NCBI GenBank assembly: GCA_024227475.1
Contig: JAAEUI010000582.1
Coordinates: 1 to 33,654, forward strand
Direction: 5' to 3'
From: Paracoccaceae bacterium
GTDB lineage: Bacteria > Pseudomonadota > Alphaproteobacteria > Rhodobacterales > Rhodobacteraceae
Length of the DNA stretch: 33,654 nucleotides
The notes under the pieces are model-generated. The model saw only the letters and a program-made list of their open reading frames with translations. It had not been told where the DNA came from and made no database searches. This document shows positions 8,175-16,786 of the stretch, piece by piece; within the stretch, counting starts at the first letter, position 1; every line of letters starts with the position of its first letter. Made by a program: the position numbers and the translations under genes.

Positions 8175-10070
8175 ATGGGATACAGTGAGATTTACCAGAG
8201 CTGCCAATCGGATCCGGAAGGGTTCTGGATGGGGGTAGCCGACGCAATTGACTGGGTGGAAAAACCGTCAAAAGCGCTGTTTGACGAAAACGCACCGCTA
8301 TATGAGTGGTTTTCTGATGGCGTGGTGAACACCTGCTATAACGCGGTGGACCGGCATGTGCAGGCGGGCCGCGGCGATCAGGTTGCGATCATTTATGACA
8401 GCCCGATCACCGGAGCCAAGGACAAGATCACTTATGCCCAGTTGCTGGACATGGTGGCGCGTCTTGGCGGGGCTTTGCAGGCCAAGGGCGTCGAAAAGGG
8501 CGACCGGGTGGTGATTTACATGCCGATGGTGCCAGAGGCGCTTGTTGCCATGCTGGCGTGTTCGCGGATAGGGGCGGTGCATTCTGTGGTGTTCGGTGGA
8601 TTCGCAGCTAACGAATTGGCCACCCGCATCGACGATGCGACCCCAAAAGCGATCATTGCCGCCAGTTGCGGGATCGAGCCGGGCAGGGTGGTTGCCTACA
8701 AGCCGCTGTTGGACGAAGCAATCAACCTGTCCGCCCACAAGCCGGACTTTACTGTGATCCTCCAGCGCGAGCAGCAGTCCGCAGAGATGACTGAAGGTCG
8801 CGACTATGACTGGCATGGGGTGCAGGAAGGCGTGGAGCCGGTACCCTGCGTACCGGTGAACGGCAACCATCCGGTATATATTCTCTATACCTCGGGCACC
8901 ACCGGCCAGCCCAAAGGCGTGGTGCGGCACACAGGCGGCCATCTGGTAGCTCTAAACTGGACCATGAAGAACCTTTATAACGTTGAACCGGGCGAGGTGT
9001 TCTGGGCCGCCTCTGACGTAGGCTGGGTCGTTGGACACAGCTATATCTGCTATGCCCCGCTCATTCACGGCAACACAACGCTGGTCTTTGAGGGCAAGCC
9101 TATTGGCACGCCTGACGCGGGTACGTTCTGGCGGGTAATTTCCGAACATGACGTCAAGGTTCTCTTCACAGCGCCGACAGCTTTCCGGGCCATCAAACGC
9201 GAAGACCCGGCTGGCGTACAGGTCGGGAAGTACGACTTGTCCTGTCTGCGCGCGCTGTTCCTAGCGGGCGAACGGGCTGACCCGGACACAATCGAATGGG
9301 CTCAGAATCAACTAGGCGTGCCGGTGATCGACCACTGGTGGCAGACCGAAACCGGCTACGCTATGGTCGCCAACCCGATCGGGATAGAAGAACTGCCGAT
9401 TAAACTCGGCTCGCCCACAGTGCCGATGCCGGGATTTGATGTGCAAATCCTTGATGAAGGCGGCCACCCGATGCCGGCCGGTGAACTTGGTGCAATTGCG
9501 GTAAAACTGCCGCTGCCCCCGGGCACCCTTCCGACTTTGTGGAACGCTGAGGCGCGCTATCACAAATCTTATCTCGAGGCTTTCCCTGGCTATTACGAGA
9601 CCGGCGATGCTGGCTACAAAGACGAAGACGGCTACCTCTACATCATGGCGCGCACAGATGACGTGATCAACGTCGCGGGCCACCGCCTGTCTACCGGTGC
9701 AATGGAAGAGGTGCTGGCCAGTCACCCCGACGTCGCTGAATGTGCGGTGATCGGCGTGGCTGACTCGCTGAAAGGACAGGCGCCGCTGGGGTTCCTGTGT
9801 CTGAATGCAGGAACCGAGAAACCCAACAATGTGATCGAAAAGGAATGCGTGACCCTTTTGCGTGAAAAGATCGGGCCGGTGGCTGCCTTCAAAATTGCCT
9901 GCGTGGTTGACCGGTTGCCAAAAACCAGGTCGGGCAAAATCCTGCGTGGTACAATGGTGAGTATTGCCGATGGTAAACCTTACAAAATGCCCGCAACAAT
10001 AGATGACCCGGTCATCTTGACAGAAATTACCGCAGCACTGGCCGGGCTCGGTTACCCAAATGCCAACTGA
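8175..10070 (+). CDS. prpE: Propionyl-CoA synthetase (propionate--CoA ligase)
   Basis: A 631-residue AMP-forming acyl-CoA synthetase of the acetyl/propionyl type, which activates propionate to propionyl-CoA through an acyl-adenylate. The N-terminal YSEIYQSCQSDPEGFW segment is of PrpE type. The phosphate-binding loop YTSGTTGQPKGV is in the middle, WWQTETGYAM follows as the A5 motif, and KTRSGKILRG near the C-terminus carries the adenylation lysine (residue 588, codon 9936-9938), the usual target of regulatory acetylation. It lies 29 bp after maeB on the same strand and may be co-transcribed with it. Acetyl-CoA synthetase is the alternative; the surrounding pccA and mutase genes and the N-terminus favour propionate. 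Confidence 0.92.
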   Translation: MGYSEIYQSCQSDPEGFWMGVADAIDWVEKPSKALFDENAPLYEWFSDGVVNTCYNAVDRHVQAGRGDQVAIIYDSPITGAKDKITYAQLLDMVARLGGALQAKGVEKGDRVVIYMPMVPEALVAMLACSRIGAVHSVVFGGFAANELATRIDDATPKAIIAASCGIEPGRVVAYKPLLDEAINLSAHKPDFTVILQREQQSAEMTEGRDYDWHGVQEGVEPVPCVPVNGNHPVYILYTSGTTGQPKGVVRHTGGHLVALNWTMKNLYNVEPGEVFWAASDVGWVVGHSYICYAPLIHGNTTLVFEGKPIGTPDAGTFWRVISEHDVKVLFTAPTAFRAIKREDPAGVQVGKYDLSCLRALFLAGERADPDTIEWAQNQLGVPVIDHWWQTETGYAMVANPIGIEELPIKLGSPTVPMPGFDVQILDEGGHPMPAGELGAIAVKLPLPPGTLPTLWNAEARYHKSYLEAFPGYYETGDAGYKDEDGYLYIMARTDDVINVAGHRLSTGAMEEVLASHPDVAECAVIGVADSLKGQAPLGFLCLNAGTEKPNNVIEKECVTLLREKIGPVAAFKIACVVDRLPKTRSGKILRGTMVSIADGKPYKMPATIDDPVILTEITAALAGLGYPNAN

Positions 10071-10415: not shown

Positions 10416-10901
10416 ATGAATAATTTTACAAAGTTTTTCGCAGTGATTGCTGCATTTTCCTTTTTGTGTAGCGCAGGTTTGGCAGAAACGATCTTAACTG
10501 TTCGGGTCAAACAGATCGGGCAGGCGGATCTGATCGCTGAGTATTCGTTGGCGGATATGCAAGCCATGCGTCAGCACACCATTGTGACGGCAAACGAATT
10601 CGTCGACGGCAAGCAGGAGTTTCAGGGCCCATTGGCCAGGGACATTCTTGTAAATCTGAATGCGCAGGATGCAAAAGTGGCTCGGTTGACAGCCGCTAAT
10701 GACTACTCAGTAGAAGTCCCTGTCGAAGAGTTTTTCCACTACGACGCAGTGCTGGCGCTGCAAATGGGCGGACAACAACTTTCCCGAAGAGACAAGGGGC
10801 CGATCTGGGTCATATACCCGATGAGCGAGCACAAAGAACTGCAAGACCCGGTTTATAACAACAGGTTGATCTGGCAGCTTGTTGAAATGGAGATTGAGTG
10901 A
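10416..10901 (+). CDS. Secreted protein of the molybdopterin-binding (sulfite oxidase-like) fold, likely non-catalytic
   Basis: A 161-residue protein with a clear signal peptide (hydrophobic residues about 7-21, cleavage after GLA), so it should be periplasmic. The mature part resembles short proteins of the oxidoreductase molybdopterin-binding family: EFQGPLARDILVNL, then AANDYSVEVPVEEFFHYDAVLALQ, then KGPIWVIYPM and PVYNNRLIWQL at the end. The only cysteine is inside the signal peptide, so the cysteine that holds molybdenum in sulfite oxidases is absent and enzymatic activity is unlikely. The stop overlaps the GTG start of the next gene, a membrane sensor kinase, by 4 bases (GTGA), implying translational coupling. 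A role as ligand-sensing partner of that kinase is inferred. ATG 10416 has a good GGGGTGCAGGG ribosome site. Confidence 0.75.
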   Translation: MNNFTKFFAVIAAFSFLCSAGLAETILTVRVKQIGQADLIAEYSLADMQAMRQHTIVTANEFVDGKQEFQGPLARDILVNLNAQDAKVARLTAANDYSVEVPVEEFFHYDAVLALQMGGQQLSRRDKGPIWVIYPMSEHKELQDPVYNNRLIWQLVEMEIE

Positions 10902-12550
10902 TCACTACGTCCAACGTGATCAGAGGGCTGGTGCTGGCAATTATCGCGGCCGGTATCCTGGCGGCTGGGAGTGCTTTTTTCTTCGTCCGCTCTGATGTCG
11001 ATGCCATGAGGGAGGAAAGCAGGGAAAACCTGTTGTGGTCTTCTTCCCAGCTGGAGATTGAGTTTTTTAGATTTCAGGAAACCTTGGCCCGGTTTGGTCT
11101 TCCCGGCTTTGATGTCGATGAGCGGGACGTGAATGACCGCTTCGATATTCTTTGGAGCCGGGTGAATTTGTTTCAACAGGGGGAAGTGGGGCGCCGCCTG
11201 AAATCCTACCCCGAGACGGGCAACACGTTAAGCAGCCTCTTTGTTACGCTCCAGGCTCAGGAAAACGCGGTGGTGAGTTTGAAACCGGGTGATCCGGACA
11301 CTAAAACTCGGGTTTTGGCTGCGTTCAGGCAACATGAGGTGCCATTACGGCGCTTCAATCGTGACATTTTACACGGTGAAGAGAAGCGCGCAGCAGGGTT
11401 GCGTGAGGAACTATATGACAGTTCAGCAATGTTGGCCTGGTTAAGCGCTCTTGCCGTAACGGCCTCTGTTGCTCTGATTTATTTCTTTGGCGCTGAAACC
11501 CGCAGGTCTCAGGCAATGGCAAGTGAAAACCGGCGTTTGTTTCAAATCGCTCAAAAAGCCAATCAGACAAAATCCCGATTTCTAACCATGATGAGTCACG
11601 AGTTGCGGACACCGATGAACGGAATACTTGGAATGATTGCCCTTGCCAAACAGCATGGGACTTCAAGCCAGCAGGATCGTTTGCTTGATCAGGCGACAGA
11701 ATCCAGCAAGCAAATGAACGATATGCTAACGGATATTCTCGACTTCGCGTCTTTGGAGGACGCAAACCTGAAGCTTTCAAGCAAACCGTTTAACCTAAAT
11801 CAGTTGCTGGACAAAACTTCGCAATCACTAGAACCCCTGGCGCGGCGGGAAGGAATTGACTTTAACATAGAAATCGCTCCGGAATGTCCTGGGCATTTGT
11901 TAGGTGATGCCCGACGGTTGCGCCAGTCGATCGTGCATCTGGCTGATTACCTGGCCGAAACTGCAGGGACAAAATCCATAACCCTGAAGGTTGATTATCA
12001 GGACGGGGCATTACAGATACTGCTGTCCTATGTGTATGGCGATGATGACAGTGATTGGCAGCCGACACTAATTCTGGGCGAAGTGGAGCGGGGCAAAGAC
12101 CGGTTCGCCACCGACGCACTTGGTCCGGCTGTCGCAAGGGGGTTTATCAAAAAAATGGGAGGCGGCATTCGTTTGCATTGCCCAGACCCCGCAAAAGAGC
12201 AGGTGGCAATTCTGGTAACAATACCAATGCAGACAAGCCAGATATCAAAAGTACTGGTGCGCATTGAAACAAATTCCGCGGCTCTGACTGCAATCTGCAA
12301 AAGCGCAATGGCAGGTGATCAGGTGGAGTTCTACAATCAGGGTTCCGAAGCGGTCGTAAATGCCGTTGTCATTGAAAGTGGATCAGAAAGTGAAAGGGAA
12401 ACCTTCAGTCGCATGAAGGTGCTATACCCAGATGCGACAATGGTAGCTCTGGGCTCACCTATTCACCCGGATTTGTTTGATGACGTAATCTCTTTACCAA
12501 TAAACGTTGAAGCTGTCCGCGGAGCCCAATACTTGCGCCAAAAAGCCTGA
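10898..12550 (+). CDS. Membrane sensor histidine kinase with degenerate ATPase and receiver domains
   Basis: A 550-residue protein: membrane helix at about 8-30, an extracytoplasmic region of about 145 residues, a second helix at 177-198, then a coiled linker and a HisKA domain with an intact H-box (SHELRTPMNGILG, His 234). The following ATPase-like region keeps LLGDARRLRQ, but the N-box reads IVHLADYLAE without the ATP-binding Asn, no DxGxG box is seen, and the GTGLGL lid is replaced by TDALGPAVARG. The C-terminal 100 residues look like a receiver domain in which the phospho-Asp position is Glu (about 493) and the conserved Lys is Leu (ISLPI, about 533). It probably cannot phosphorylate itself with its own ATPase domain. 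The GTG start overlaps the preceding stop by 4 bases. Confidence 0.82.
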   Translation: MITTSNVIRGLVLAIIAAGILAAGSAFFFVRSDVDAMREESRENLLWSSSQLEIEFFRFQETLARFGLPGFDVDERDVNDRFDILWSRVNLFQQGEVGRRLKSYPETGNTLSSLFVTLQAQENAVVSLKPGDPDTKTRVLAAFRQHEVPLRRFNRDILHGEEKRAAGLREELYDSSAMLAWLSALAVTASVALIYFFGAETRRSQAMASENRRLFQIAQKANQTKSRFLTMMSHELRTPMNGILGMIALAKQHGTSSQQDRLLDQATESSKQMNDMLTDILDFASLEDANLKLSSKPFNLNQLLDKTSQSLEPLARREGIDFNIEIAPECPGHLLGDARRLRQSIVHLADYLAETAGTKSITLKVDYQDGALQILLSYVYGDDDSDWQPTLILGEVERGKDRFATDALGPAVARGFIKKMGGGIRLHCPDPAKEQVAILVTIPMQTSQISKVLVRIETNSAALTAICKSAMAGDQVEFYNQGSEAVVNAVVIESGSESERETFSRMKVLYPDATMVALGSPIHPDLFDDVISLPINVEAVRGAQYLRQKA

Positions 12551-12805
12551 AGATTGCCGCTTGCGTGGGGTCTGCAGAGTTCATGCTGATGAAGGCACCC
12601 CTTGCGGCTCATCGCGCTGAAATGGGCTACAAGAATGCGGCGACGTGCCTTTTAGTAAAGGGGCTGTCTGTTTCATGCCATCACCACTGCAATCACTGAT
12701 TAAACGCCGCACTCTCTAAGTAACTCATGAATTGACTAATTGCTTTGCACCTCAACCTATGAGGGTCTATGATTGTTTGAACGGCTATTGGGGTGACCGA
12801 CGTAT
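12551..12805 (+). promoter_or_regulatory. Intergenic region with weak sigma-70-like promoter before the hybrid kinase
   Basis: This 255-bp gap breaks the otherwise tight locus. A TATGAT box (12768-12773) lies 17 bases after TTGCAC (12745-12750), with an expected start near 12780 and the next gene at 12806. The -10 box is good and the -35 box poor. It may give the two downstream genes their own promoter. Confidence 0.25.
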
Positions 12806-14359
12806 ATGGGCCAAAATAATTCAAATGGTTCTGCCAGTAAGCGTGACCAGAACGATATTTCCGAAATGGATTCCGCTGCTTTGTTGTCTCATGACCTTCG
12901 GTCGGCTGTCTCCGATATTATAGGTGGCCTTCAGTTGCTCGATTTGAGCGGACTGGATGAGGGAAATCGGCGCCAGGTCGAACGGATTTCGGCCTCTGCC
13001 GGGCTGTTGTACCGGTTGCTTGAAAAATCCACGAGTTCCGACAGCGGGGGCGAACTGGCGGCCGACTGGCACAGGGCTACGCCAATAAAAATCTCCGAGC
13101 TTCTGGACACCTTGGAAAAACGTTGGAGCGCCCGGGCGGGTGAAAAAGGAATTTCGCTCGAGTTCCGGTTGGAAACCGAACCGGGTTTCTTACTGAACTG
13201 TAGCCGACTGCCGTTGGAACGGCTGCTTGCAAATGTCCTCGACAATGCGATTAAAAACACTGACGAGGGCAAAATATCTGTGATTTCGTCAGCACAAGAC
13301 AGTTCCTGTGTGCGATTTGATGTCCAGGACCAGGGCCCGGGATTCAGTCAGGACGCCCTTGATAAGTTGTTTTCTTTTGGTGGTCGTCCGGTTCGCTCAG
13401 AAAAGCCGGGGTCTGGGATGGGGCTTTTCATCGCGCAGCAGATGGTGTGGCGCTTGAACGGAACGATAACTGTACAAAACACATCCGAAGGGGCGTTGGT
13501 TCGGATCGTTTTGCCCTTGCAAGATGACGGGGCAACTTCAGATCGTCCAGTAGTTTTATCAGCCCAGCAGCCCCAACAAAGACTGGCAGGCATGTGCGTT
13601 TTGCTGGCTGAAGACAACAAGACCAACCAGATCGCCGCTGGCCAGATGTTGCGGACTTTGGGTGCGGAAGTCTCAGTTGCCGCCGATGGGGTGGAGGCCT
13701 GGAACCTCCTTGAAAGGCAGACCTTTGATTTCGCGGTGCTCGATATCGAAATGCCGCGAAAGTCCGGACTTGAACTGATCCGTGATATCCGCGCCAGAAC
13801 GGACGCCATGGCGAGGATACCGCTTATCGCGCTAACCGCTTACGTCATGCGTGAACATCGCGAACGTATTCTGGCAAGTGGCGCCGACGGGATTATCGCA
13901 AAGCCACTTATGGACATCGACGATTTTGGTGAATCGATTGAATACATTTTGGGTATTCCAGCTCACATGCCAGCAAATACCAGACAGGAAGTCGCTGAAC
14001 CGCCATCTGGGCCAGTTGATTTGAACGTCTACAATTCTTTGCGCAAAACGATAGGCACGGAGGCATTTTCAGAATTACTGGAAAAACTTCTGGATGATCT
14101 GAGCATGGTTAAGGATCGGCTGCAAAGCGCATTTGCAAACCGGGACGTCAACAAGGCAAGAACCGCCAGCCATGTTATGATATCCTTGGCCGGGGCAATA
14201 GGGGCCACCCGCCTGCAAGAGGTCGCCCAATCTTTGAACACTGCCGCAAATGATGGAGATGGCTGGAAATTATCGGATTTTGAGTGCAGAAGTCTGGAAC
14301 TTCTGGGTGAACTTACGGTATTTCTGGAAACTGCGCTTGGAGAGCAAAAAGAGGACTAA
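12806..14359 (+). CDS. Soluble hybrid histidine kinase: HisKA-HATPase-receiver-Hpt
   Basis: A 517-residue cytoplasmic protein without membrane segments. The HisKA H-box is LLSHDLRSAVSDIIGG (His 29). The ATPase domain is complete: N-box ANVLDNAIK (Asn 147), DQGPGF, a LFSFGG F-box, and GSGMGLFIA as the lid. A receiver domain follows with AEDN, the phospho-acceptor in VLDIEMP (Asp 313), LTAYVM and IIAKPL. The last 110 residues form a helical Hpt-like domain with His 456 in ARTASHVMISLAGAIGA; the usual HxxKG has become HxxIS. It has all parts of a His-Asp-His phosphorelay and probably supplies phosphate to the activator encoded directly downstream (stop and next ATG are adjacent). It may also act with the degenerate membrane kinase upstream. 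Confidence 0.88.
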   Translation: MGQNNSNGSASKRDQNDISEMDSAALLSHDLRSAVSDIIGGLQLLDLSGLDEGNRRQVERISASAGLLYRLLEKSTSSDSGGELAADWHRATPIKISELLDTLEKRWSARAGEKGISLEFRLETEPGFLLNCSRLPLERLLANVLDNAIKNTDEGKISVISSAQDSSCVRFDVQDQGPGFSQDALDKLFSFGGRPVRSEKPGSGMGLFIAQQMVWRLNGTITVQNTSEGALVRIVLPLQDDGATSDRPVVLSAQQPQQRLAGMCVLLAEDNKTNQIAAGQMLRTLGAEVSVAADGVEAWNLLERQTFDFAVLDIEMPRKSGLELIRDIRARTDAMARIPLIALTAYVMREHRERILASGADGIIAKPLMDIDDFGESIEYILGIPAHMPANTRQEVAEPPSGPVDLNVYNSLRKTIGTEAFSELLEKLLDDLSMVKDRLQSAFANRDVNKARTASHVMISLAGAIGATRLQEVAQSLNTAANDGDGWKLSDFECRSLELLGELTVFLETALGEQKED

Positions 14360-15775
14360 ATGCCGGAACCTGTGTTGCTAATCGAAGATACTCCATCCCT
14401 TCAGATGGTGTATGAGGCGATCCTGAACAAGTCCGGTTATAAGGCGGATTGTGCAAATAACGCTGCCGAAGGCGCAATACTATTTCGAAAAAACGGGCAC
14501 AAGATTATTCTGCTCGATCTTCTTCTCCCGGATCGTGACGGACTTGATCTGATGGCCGACCTGCTGGCCCTTAACTCACGAGTGAAGGTCATCGTGATTA
14601 CTGCCAATGGATCAATCAACCGCGCAGTGGCCGCGATGCGGGGTGGGGCATTTGATTTCCTGGTCAAACCATTTGATGAACAAAGGCTGATCTCTTCCGT
14701 GCGAAACGCAATTGTCGATCTTGGGCCATCTGCCCTGAGCAACGCAAGCATCGAAGTATCCGAAACCGGGTTTCAGGGGTTCACTGGCGTTTCACCGGTT
14801 ATGCAGGACATCTACAAGAAAATTGCCAGCATCGGCCGGTCAATGGCGACGGTTTTTATTTCTGGGGAAAGCGGCACTGGCAAAGAATTATGTGCCGAGG
14901 CTATTCATGCAGTTTCTAACCGGGCTTCGGGCCCGTTTGTCCCTTTGAATTGCGGGGCGATTCCAGCCGATCTGCTGGAATCCGAAGTGTTTGGCCACCT
15001 TAAAGGTTCCTTTACTGGAGCTATCGCTGACAAAATCGGCGCAGCGGCAGCGGCAGACGGGGGAACGCTGTTTCTTGATGAAATCTGCGAAATGGACATG
15101 GCGTTACAGACGAAGCTGCTAAGGTTCCTGCAGACGTCAACGATTCAACCGGTTGGGTCTGTCAGCCCGCGCAAAGTCGATGTGCGGATCGTTTGCGCAA
15201 CCAACCGCGATCCCTTTGAAGAGGTTGCCGCCGGGCGCTTTCGAGAAGACCTGTTTTACAGGTTGCACGTCGTGCCGATTCACTTGCCAAACCTCAGAAA
15301 TAGGGGCGAGGATGCCCTGCTGATCGCAAAAGCCGCACTTCAACGGTTTTCTCGGGAGGAGGGCAAGAAATTCAACCGCCTCAGCGGAGACGTAACTCGG
15401 GTCTTTGCTGCCCATCCCTGGCCTGGAAACGTTCGCCAGCTACTGAATGTTTTACGAAATGCTATCGTTTTGAACGACGGTGAGGTGGTGGAACTGAAAA
15501 TGCTGGCACCAGAATTTTTGGCTGCTTTAAGTTCCCATATGAACGGAGCAACCAAAGCTGCGCCAGATAAGCCCCCCCCCGAGGCAACGGCACCCAGCCA
15601 GGAATCCGCAATTGAAGCCCTGCTTTCATCACGTCAAACCCTGGCGCAACTGGAACGGGACATAATAGAAGCCACGATTGAAAAATACGGTGGCTCCGTG
15701 CCACGGGCGGCCCGACATCTTGATTTGTCACCCTCAACGATTTACCGCAAGCGCGAAAGCTGGGACGAGAAATAA
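14360..15775 (+). CDS. LuxO-like sigma-54-dependent response regulator
   Basis: A 471-residue NtrC-class activator. The receiver domain has LIEDTPSLQ, phospho-Asp 53 in ILLDLLLPDRDGL, ITANGS and LVKPFDE. The AAA+ domain has Walker A GESGTGKE (169-176), the sigma-54 contact loop as GSFTGA (216-221, usually GAFTGA) and Walker B TLFLDEI. A HTH of Fis type lies at about 444-465. The AAA+ region around EICEMDMALQTKLLRFLQ and VCATNRDPFEEV resembles Vibrio LuxO more than NtrC or DctD. It follows the hybrid kinase without spacing, so that kinase is the likely phosphodonor. A run of eight C (15572-15579) lies in the linker before the HTH. Regulated targets are unknown; its own locus is a strong candidate. 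Confidence 0.9.
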   Translation: MPEPVLLIEDTPSLQMVYEAILNKSGYKADCANNAAEGAILFRKNGHKIILLDLLLPDRDGLDLMADLLALNSRVKVIVITANGSINRAVAAMRGGAFDFLVKPFDEQRLISSVRNAIVDLGPSALSNASIEVSETGFQGFTGVSPVMQDIYKKIASIGRSMATVFISGESGTGKELCAEAIHAVSNRASGPFVPLNCGAIPADLLESEVFGHLKGSFTGAIADKIGAAAAADGGTLFLDEICEMDMALQTKLLRFLQTSTIQPVGSVSPRKVDVRIVCATNRDPFEEVAAGRFREDLFYRLHVVPIHLPNLRNRGEDALLIAKAALQRFSREEGKKFNRLSGDVTRVFAAHPWPGNVRQLLNVLRNAIVLNDGEVVELKMLAPEFLAALSSHMNGATKAAPDKPPPEATAPSQESAIEALLSSRQTLAQLERDIIEATIEKYGGSVPRAARHLDLSPSTIYRKRESWDEK

Positions 15776-16159: not shown

Positions 16160-16786
16160 ATGCGAATTCTGATGGGTGCATTTTTGATGGCTTGTTTAGC
16201 GGTCTCTTCAGTCGGGCCCGCCGGTGCTAAAACCATTCGTGAGGTCGGATCACCAGCTGAAACACCTCCCGAAAGTTATCAGGGCAAACAATATGTTGAC
16301 AGCCGCGGCTGTGTTTTCATCCGCGCCGGGTACGGCGGTCAGGTTACGTGGGTTCCGCGGGTCAATCGCAAACGCGAGGTTTATTGCAGTAAGGAAAACA
16401 AACCGTCTTTGTCGCACTCACAACTTGCCGCCCTTGGCAGCACGCCGGTTATTGTCAAAACAGAGCCGGTGATAAAAACCCCAACCTCGGTGGCTGCCAC
16501 GACAAAGAGCACGACCACTGTAGCATCCGCCGCCACGAAACAAACAATCACAAAGCGTAAGCGTCGCAGCGTGGGCGCGTCAACGCGGCAGGACGCCCAG
16601 GCAACCGCCTTAAACCGACGTGCTGGAACTCGTCACCGTGTGGTGCAGCGGAACCTGACAATCGCCGCTGTGACTGTTGATCCTGATGTAACAGCAGCAG
16701 GAGACGCTCAGATGGAAAAAATCTGGACAAATACCGTGCCCCGCAGACTGATTGTCCGCCGGGTTGGTGTAAAAGCCAGTAACTGA
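16160..16786 (+). CDS. Secreted protein with the N-terminal motif of Rhodobacteraceae SPOR-type proteins
   Basis: A 208-residue protein with a signal peptide (residues 1-23, cleavage after PAGA). After it comes QYVDSRGCVFIRAGYGGQVTWVPRVNRKREVYC (about 45-77), a segment familiar from the N-terminal part of secreted SPOR-domain proteins in Rhodobacteraceae. Two cysteines flank it and may form a disulfide. The remainder is low-complexity, rich in Thr, Ala, Lys and Arg (residues about 95-150), ending in a basic tail; no SPOR domain could be recognised. It is probably periplasmic and may contact the cell wall, but the function is unknown. Start ATG 16160 has a GGGAGGGC site 4-11 bases upstream. 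Confidence 0.7.
   Translation: MRILMGAFLMACLAVSSVGPAGAKTIREVGSPAETPPESYQGKQYVDSRGCVFIRAGYGGQVTWVPRVNRKREVYCSKENKPSLSHSQLAALGSTPVIVKTEPVIKTPTSVAATTKSTTTVASAATKQTITKRKRRSVGASTRQDAQATALNRRAGTRHRVVQRNLTIAAVTVDPDVTAAGDAQMEKIWTNTVPRRLIVRRVGVKASN

Follow-up and report, generated by a model that had tools for sequence, protein, structure and literature searches.

Kinase-dead, PruR-linked receptors of Rhodobacteraceae and relatives as candidate phosphatase subunits of a proposed split histidine kinase

The window, namely, the whole 33,654-nucleotide stretch of Paracoccaceae DNA that was analysed, contains on its forward strand a set of neighbouring signalling genes. A pruR-like gene (10416..10901), coding by homology for a secreted pterin-binding protein of 161 residues (PF00174), overlaps by 4 bases the following ORF (10898..12550). 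The latter, with a GTG start, encodes a 550-residue protein that we classify as a kinase-dead receptor of the DTB type and name pHK. Further downstream, hk2 (12806..14359) codes, according to Pfam and alignments, for a soluble HisKA-HATPase-REC-Hpt kinase of 517 residues, and is followed by the gene of a sigma-54-dependent response regulator (14360..15775), assigned by Pfam to the REC-AAA-Fis, LuxO/NtrC type, whose best NCBIfam match, LuxO, reaches 536.9 bits, under the cut-off of 800 for that family. The gap between pHK and hk2 (12551-12805) measures 255 bases, whereas the hk2 frame of many relatives already opens within some 100 bases.

On the same strand, an acyl/acetyl-CoA synthetase gene (8175..10070; Pfam ACAS_N and AMP-binding) precedes these genes. 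It is a frequent upstream neighbour, found just upstream of PruR-pHK also at L031, L040-L044, L047-L049, L056 and L057 (L and G numbers being our labels for loci and genomes), and no match to it was seen at several loci with enough flank (e.g., L028, L034, L035); this neighbourhood may point to a connection with the use of acetate or propionate. Beyond the regulator gene, an ORF at 16160-16786 codes for 208 residues; it begins like a signal peptide, matches nothing in Pfam, and is represented by a homologue at the corresponding position of another genome of the genus (L156). We considered and discarded a sigma-54 promoter close to these genes, because the -24/-12 pattern occurs 54 times in the window, chance alone predicting 49, and its single exact match falls inside another ORF. 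Matches to sigma-70 promoters were likewise at chance level, including in the gap 12551-12805.

pHK is a predicted membrane protein with two transmembrane helices, formed by residues 12-30 (10931..10987; hydropathy of 2.48 over 19 residues) and 179-197 (11432..11488; hydropathy of 2.01), a periplasmic domain of ~148 residues (about 31-178), and then HisKA (DHp), CA-like and receiver-like domains. The DHp domain (11540..11767) carries an intact H-box, S-H234-E235-L-R-T238-P239, and HisKA is the sole Pfam domain recognised in the protein (residues 225-288, E=8.4e-18), neither HATPase_c nor Response_reg being matched by Pfam up to E=1. A preliminary description of this DNA had read both the ATPase and the receiver domain as inactivated next to an intact H-box, and this reading holds. 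Its range, 11870-12550, corresponds to residues 325-550 and takes in the whole receiver-like domain and the greater part of the CA-like one, but H234 lies outside it, at 11597-11599. In comparison with the intact kinases L021 and L022, the degenerate CA (HATPase) domain (11768..12235) has lost all three boxes and kept its fold. The N-box, NLIGNAVK and NLIANAVK in these kinases, is replaced by HLADYLAE (residues 347-354, 11936-11959), the G1 box DTGIG and DTGPG by YGDDD (residues 380-384, 12035-12049), and the G2 box GTGLG by TDALG (residues 405-409, 12110-12124), of which the final L-G is retained. Among the residues expected of an active HisKA-HATPase protein, the H-box His is therefore present, and the N-box Asn, DxGxG and most of GxGLG are gone. 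The pseudo-receiver domain (12245..12547) keeps a receiver fold without the acidic pocket, phospho-Asp, Thr/Ser and Lys of a phosphorylatable receiver, the acidic pair being replaced by T-N (458-459), the phospho-Asp by E493 (12374-12376), the Thr/Ser by G519 and the Lys by L533 (12494-12496).

Boxes hidden at shifted positions were ruled out by a profile-profile alignment of 33 pHK with 25 hk2 proteins, which spans DHp, CA and REC (probability of 99.1, E=5e-19) and places each lost pHK box opposite an intact hk2 box; the missing boxes were not found elsewhere. A frameshift or truncation artefact was also ruled out, similar-length relatives carrying the same changes. Weak traces of HATPase_c can be detected in some relatives, 16 out of 33 giving a match with E no higher than 0.1 (0.001 at best). 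The AlphaFold model of residues 162-447 has GacS as its best PDB match (7z8n, Z 20.4, rmsd 3.2, 280 aligned), and also resembles RetS (7n0e, Z 19.1, rmsd 2.9, 191 aligned) and DivL (4q20, Z 17.7, rmsd 5.0, 220 aligned), while residues 447-550 folded alone best match CheY (6ekg, Z 12.1, rmsd 2.4, 98 aligned). In the predicted structures, pHK thus keeps both the DHp-CA fold and the receiver fold. Its CA domain, to judge from the sequence, lacks the ATP-binding boxes, and the protein is probably inactive toward ATP.

Relatives of pHK were sought in 295 genomes of the same family (own included), with an additional scan of named genomes (80 loci kept). From these 80 loci, L025-L062 alone were aligned (bit score over 100), and the weaker matches L063-L104, mainly to the kinase core, stayed outside the family alignment, save L096 and L101, which served as outgroups. 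The 56 aligned rows minus six same-genome duplicates (L032, L036, L046, L053, L059, L060) gave 50, window protein included, and six of these (L021-L024, L061, L062; 110-124 bits) were left out after their intact boxes had been noticed, resulting in a 44-row family from Rhodobacteraceae and relatives. L108, L111 and L112 were added later, in the tree and outside the 44-row counts. The H-box is uniform across the 44 rows, with His, Glu at +1, Thr/Asn at +4 (41 T, 3 N) and Pro at +5 in every one. In the CA boxes, neither N-box Asn (0 and 0) nor either of the first two G2 Gly (0 and 0) is ever found, and the G1 Asp occurs in a single row; N-box Asn is absent in all 42 rows above 200 bits, and also in L019 and L020 below 200. 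The losses are, on this alignment, family-wide and more than a local defect or chance, since they are shared across the 44 rows, a depth of conservation that the preliminary description did not contain.

The lost boxes and their surroundings have acquired new conserved positions, among them Y351 (35/44), W387 (43/44) and P410 (42/44), and 25 columns are invariant among 33 pHK proteins. Pairwise dN/dS ranges from 0.01 to 0.22 in the DHp and from 0.08 to 0.41 in the CA-like domain (10 pairs), and from 0.08 to 0.42 in the receiver-like domain (9 pairs with finite dS). These values are rough, many dS exceeding 1 and one comparison each of the receiver-like and sensor segments having a saturated dS; dN/dS is well below 1 in all four pHK segments, where computable. 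The dead domains are under purifying selection. One homologue, L009 (G162), has an in-frame TAG and may be a pseudogene or reflect an assembly error. In a tree whose columns took in the dead boxes, and which was rooted by five intact PruR-linked kinases (L022, L023, L024, L096, L101), 47 kinase-dead rows form one side of a branch with a support of 100/100. The distribution is patchy, 18 of the 295 family genomes matching at 1e-30, of which 14 hold members of the kinase-dead family (own genome included), and at the level of the order 7 out of 390 matching at 1e-60 (own included). Within the window's genus, seven other genomes were considered (G120, G330, G390, G395, G415, G489, G534), and G415 alone has a match at 1e-60, so the system seems to be often gained or lost.

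The sensory side of the locus, the pterin-binding partner and the receptor motif, was likewise missing from the preliminary description. The PruR-like protein matches Pfam Oxidored_molyb (E=2.3e-7), and its closest solved structures are pterin-binding (7rkb 3e-21, 7kp2 6e-19, 7kos 2e-17). It keeps the pterin-contact residues N95, Y97 and W153, found in 35, 36 and 36 of 37 family rows, respectively. Its only Cys, C18, is located within the signal-peptide-like start. A molybdenum enzyme was ruled out, the mature protein having no Cys and its homologues being pterin-binding. As described in PMC13259868, PruR proteins lack the Mo-ligating Cys and contact pterin through Trp160 and Tyr104 (A. tumefaciens numbering), and their partners are receptors with a periplasmic WX7E motif, either those of the DcpA type, which are c-di-GMP enzymes, or those of the DTB type, which are kinases resembling TorS/BaeS. 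In a PruR-DTB system, reduced pterin is expected to bind PruR and to favour its contact with the receptor. In pHK, this motif (W47...E55, 11036..11062) lies within the periplasmic domain. Both W and E are present in 39 of the 40 rows reaching the motif, the remaining one having Y/E, and four rows are cut; L020 is without the Trp. A PruR match accompanies pHK in 37 of the 39 family rows whose upstream stretch is long enough, five further rows being cut by contig ends, and none was found at L017 and L020 despite sufficient upstream sequence. At L152 (G004), pHK, a REC-Hpt protein and the regulator stand together with WX7E kept, and no PruR match was seen between acs and pHK, where a very divergent PruR may be present. 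A second, weak PruR-like match (29% identity) was noticed elsewhere in the window's own genome (G000:C5:44387-44692). The PruR-like upstream gene and the WX7E motif place pHK, by homology, within the PruR-DTB family, as a receptor of DTB ancestry whose kinase is dead.

No sensor and no membrane helix were found in hk2. Its catalytic residues are intact, comprising H29 in the DHp domain, N143 and N147 in the N-box, D175, G177 and G179 in G1, G202, G204 and G206 in G2, D313 and K366 in the receiver, and H456 in the Hpt domain, and H29 is followed by S33 and A34 at +4 and +5. In a 25-row alignment, the DHp His, the receiver Lys and the Hpt His are found in 25/25, and the receiver Asp in 24/25 (one unreadable). 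A count of 35 rows, with duplicates, REC-Hpt-only rows and other kinases left out, gave both N-box Asn and the G1 Asp in 35/35 and the G2 Gly in 34/35. At the +4 site, the same rows have S in 26, A in three, G in two, N in two and T in two, such that T/N is kept in 4/35, and Pro at +5 is gone in 35/35.

The meaning of these positions comes from the work of Willett and Kirby (PMC3510030), according to which Thr/Asn four places after the His is required for the phosphatase, not the kinase, activity of HisKA proteins, changing Pro+5 to Ala cuts the phosphatase activity, and the acidic residue following the His is required for autophosphorylation, not phosphatase activity, in the proteins tested. 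Among the T/N-site mutants of that paper there is none with Ser (no N375S or T264S). As a control, 40 other kinase regions from five related genomes were taken (of 41 covering the His), 35 of which could be scored; the scoring profile derives from pHK and hk2 sequences and could overlook H-boxes that diverge from these, five regions being unscored. These control kinases have T/N in 34/35 and Pro+5 in 33/35, and the contrast with the 4/35 of hk2 is marked (Fisher p = 4e-14, relatedness ignored). In the window's own genome, 13 of the 16 other kinases were readable, with T/N in 10, S in one and Q in two, indicating a looser rule. In the absence of a Ser mutant from the published set, hk2 may retain some phosphatase activity, and four of its rows still carry T/N.

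Because pHK keeps T/N and Pro without the kinase boxes, and hk2 the reverse, the comparison suggests that the two proteins keep complementary halves of one bifunctional kinase. The explanation that we favour, with about even confidence, is a split histidine kinase in which hk2 acts as the kinase and pHK as a pterin-gated phosphatase or phosphotransfer subunit on the receiver of hk2. The PruR-like protein would bind reduced pterin in the periplasm and probably dock, as its homologues do, on the WX7E domain of pHK, from which the signal would pass across the membrane to the DHp domain. hk2, whose kinase boxes are present at the sequence level, would make the phosphate, and the domain order implies a route from H29 to D313, then to H456, and on to the LuxO/NtrC-like regulator. 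pHK would set the phosphorylation level of the hk2 receiver, mainly as a transmitter phosphatase via H234-E-x-x-T238, and possibly also through reversible phosphotransfer onto H234; under the control of the PruR-like protein, it would thereby tune phosphate flow to the sigma-54-dependent regulator. The phosphatase activity of pHK, its control by pterin and the direction of this control are what we infer from these features. The REC-Hpt module appears as the constant partner, since in six family rows the protein paired with pHK is of the REC-Hpt type and stands in place of hk2. Where the preliminary description had left trans-phosphorylation, phosphatase and scaffold roles side by side, the balance now leans to the phosphatase or phosphotransfer subunit, because T/N is invariant in pHK (44/44) and kept in only 4/35 hk2, and because RetS offers a precedent.

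An allosteric scaffold is unlikely, though it merits attention. In such a role, pHK would heterodimerise with hk2 and switch it on or off with its H-box chemistry unused, in the manner of DivL-CckA or of the third mechanism of RetS. Published precedents of this kind exist (PMC12189002, PMC5992135). Both DHp domains are of the HisKA type, hk2 is devoid of sensor and membrane helix, and the folds nearest to pHK include those of DivL and RetS. However, DivL has a Tyr at the H-box His position, unlike pHK, and for a pure scaffold there would be no need to hold His, Glu and Thr/Asn invariant in 44/44 rows, nor would the loss of the phosphatase residues from hk2 be expected.

Trans-phosphorylation is rather unlikely as well. 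Here, the CA domain of hk2 would phosphorylate H234, and phosphorylated pHK would feed the hk2 receiver or the regulator, the two proteins working as a split pair. hk2 does have a full CA domain, H234 and E235 are invariant (44/44 each), and an acidic residue at this place is needed for autokinase activity in the HisKA proteins tested (PMC3510030). We keep this option because of the invariant Glu235, which also fits phosphorylation of H234 and would count against a pure phosphatase model. On the other hand, hk2 possesses its own DHp His (25/25), making a second acceptor unnecessary, the six rows without an adjoining hk2-type kinase still keep H234, and RetS keeps the same H-box without autophosphorylation (PMC5992135).

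The preliminary description had also proposed that the Glu at the Asp position could mimic a permanently active receiver. We regard such a domain, which would bind hk2, the Hpt domain or the regulator, as improbable, the residue counts speaking weakly against it. The receiver fold is kept and Glu prevails in 35 of the 42 rows having the domain, but the other seven carry Asp (five), Ala (one) or Ser (one), the switch Lys and Thr/Ser are gone in 42/42, and the entire domain is missing in L019 and L112. That pHK is a decaying gene, drifting since hk2 replaced its kinase function, is hardly credible, as the lost ATP-binding boxes and receiver residues and the in-frame TAG of L009 are set against a dN/dS well below 1 in all four segments where computable, which contradicts drift, against the 25 invariant columns, and against new conserved positions such as Y351 and W387.

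With regard to the origin of the pairing, the protein in place of hk2 in the six rows mentioned (L017, L020, L048, L049, L051, L054) aligns with the receiver and Hpt parts only. Pfam, run on five of them (not L051), gave a clear receiver in 5/5 and an Hpt domain at the cut-off in three and below it in L048 and L049. Five of the six, together with the receiver-less L019 and L112, branch below a 40-row clade holding every hk2-bearing row (backbone support of 97/86 and 96/81; 86/72 for the five-row REC-Hpt group), and L020, on a very long branch, falls inside this clade. In Rubrimonas cliftonensis (G083, so named by its match to L060; L151, L154), a REC-Hpt protein, with its Hpt match below the cut-off, and a LuxO-like regulator stand beside an acyl-CoA synthetase gene without a PruR/pHK match there, PruR-pHK being on a separate contig. 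In the simplest reading, the receptor, already kinase-dead, initially worked with a REC-Hpt protein that obtained its phosphate from some other kinase, and the kinase domains of hk2 were added afterwards; the early-branching rows could instead have lost hk2, these being few long branches of moderate support. More tentatively, and below even confidence, we propose a natural pterin-gated split of a bifunctional kinase, in which the receptor became the phosphatase subunit and the soluble kinase is without phosphatase residues, the ATPase having been lost once while the partner was only a REC-Hpt protein, before the kinase domains were gained.

In many HisKA sensors, a single protein alternates between kinase and phosphatase activity, which makes it hard to tell which of them the signal controls. 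Here, each activity seems to have its own gene, the residues retained in one being the opposite of those retained in the other across 35 counted locus pairs, and this division makes the signal-controlled activity directly testable. The pHK system further ties the question to pterin signalling, for which the worked-out example in PMC13259868 is a c-di-GMP enzyme. If the proposed history is true, 'phosphatase first, kinase later' would represent a route for the evolution of sensor phosphatases.

Several known systems share part of this organisation. DivL of Caulobacter, which works with CckA, is like pHK a pseudo-histidine kinase tuning a hybrid kinase, with a matching fold (4q20), and differs in that pHK has its H-box His, H234. 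CheA3/CheA4 of Rhodobacter sphaeroides is a split histidine kinase, in which, as proposed here, kinase functions are split over two proteins; these are CheA-type proteins, whereas pHK is a membrane HisKA receptor. A general definition of split kinases is given in PMC4014401.

The precedent for the proposed mechanism is the RetS-GacS pair. GacS, the partner of RetS, has kinase, receiver and Hpt domains, as in hk2, and is a membrane sensor, whereas hk2 has no membrane helix and has lost the phosphatase residues. RetS of Pseudomonas aeruginosa has a degenerate HATPase without G-boxes and an intact HExxT, cannot autophosphorylate despite its H-box, and dephosphorylates the GacS receiver (PMC5992135). 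pHK has the same degenerate HATPase, intact HExxT and DHp-CA fold, and its sequence matches RetS (6dk8, E 1.6e-16) and GacS (7z8n, E 2.5e-20). Unlike RetS, whose REC2 acceptor Asp D858 takes phosphate and serves mechanism 1, not the phosphatase (PMC5992135), pHK has no acceptor Asp in its receiver (E493). The PruR-DTB (DcpA-TorS-BaeS) systems resemble the locus in its two-gene unit, composed of a secreted pterin-binding PruR and a WX7E receptor with a TorS/BaeS-like cytoplasmic part. In PMC13259868, DTB kinases are described as modular, the Ruegeria pomeroyi example being drawn with a HATPase and the Asp of a receiver, while other DTB proteins may carry these domains in full or in part; kinase-dead members are described neither in the passages of that source used here nor among the literature matches listed. 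pHK departs from these systems in that its HATPase and receiver are present as folds but dead, and in that its operon includes a further gene, for hk2 or for a REC-Hpt protein. By analogy, pHK would be RetS-like in predicted function only, because its sensor is of the DTB type.
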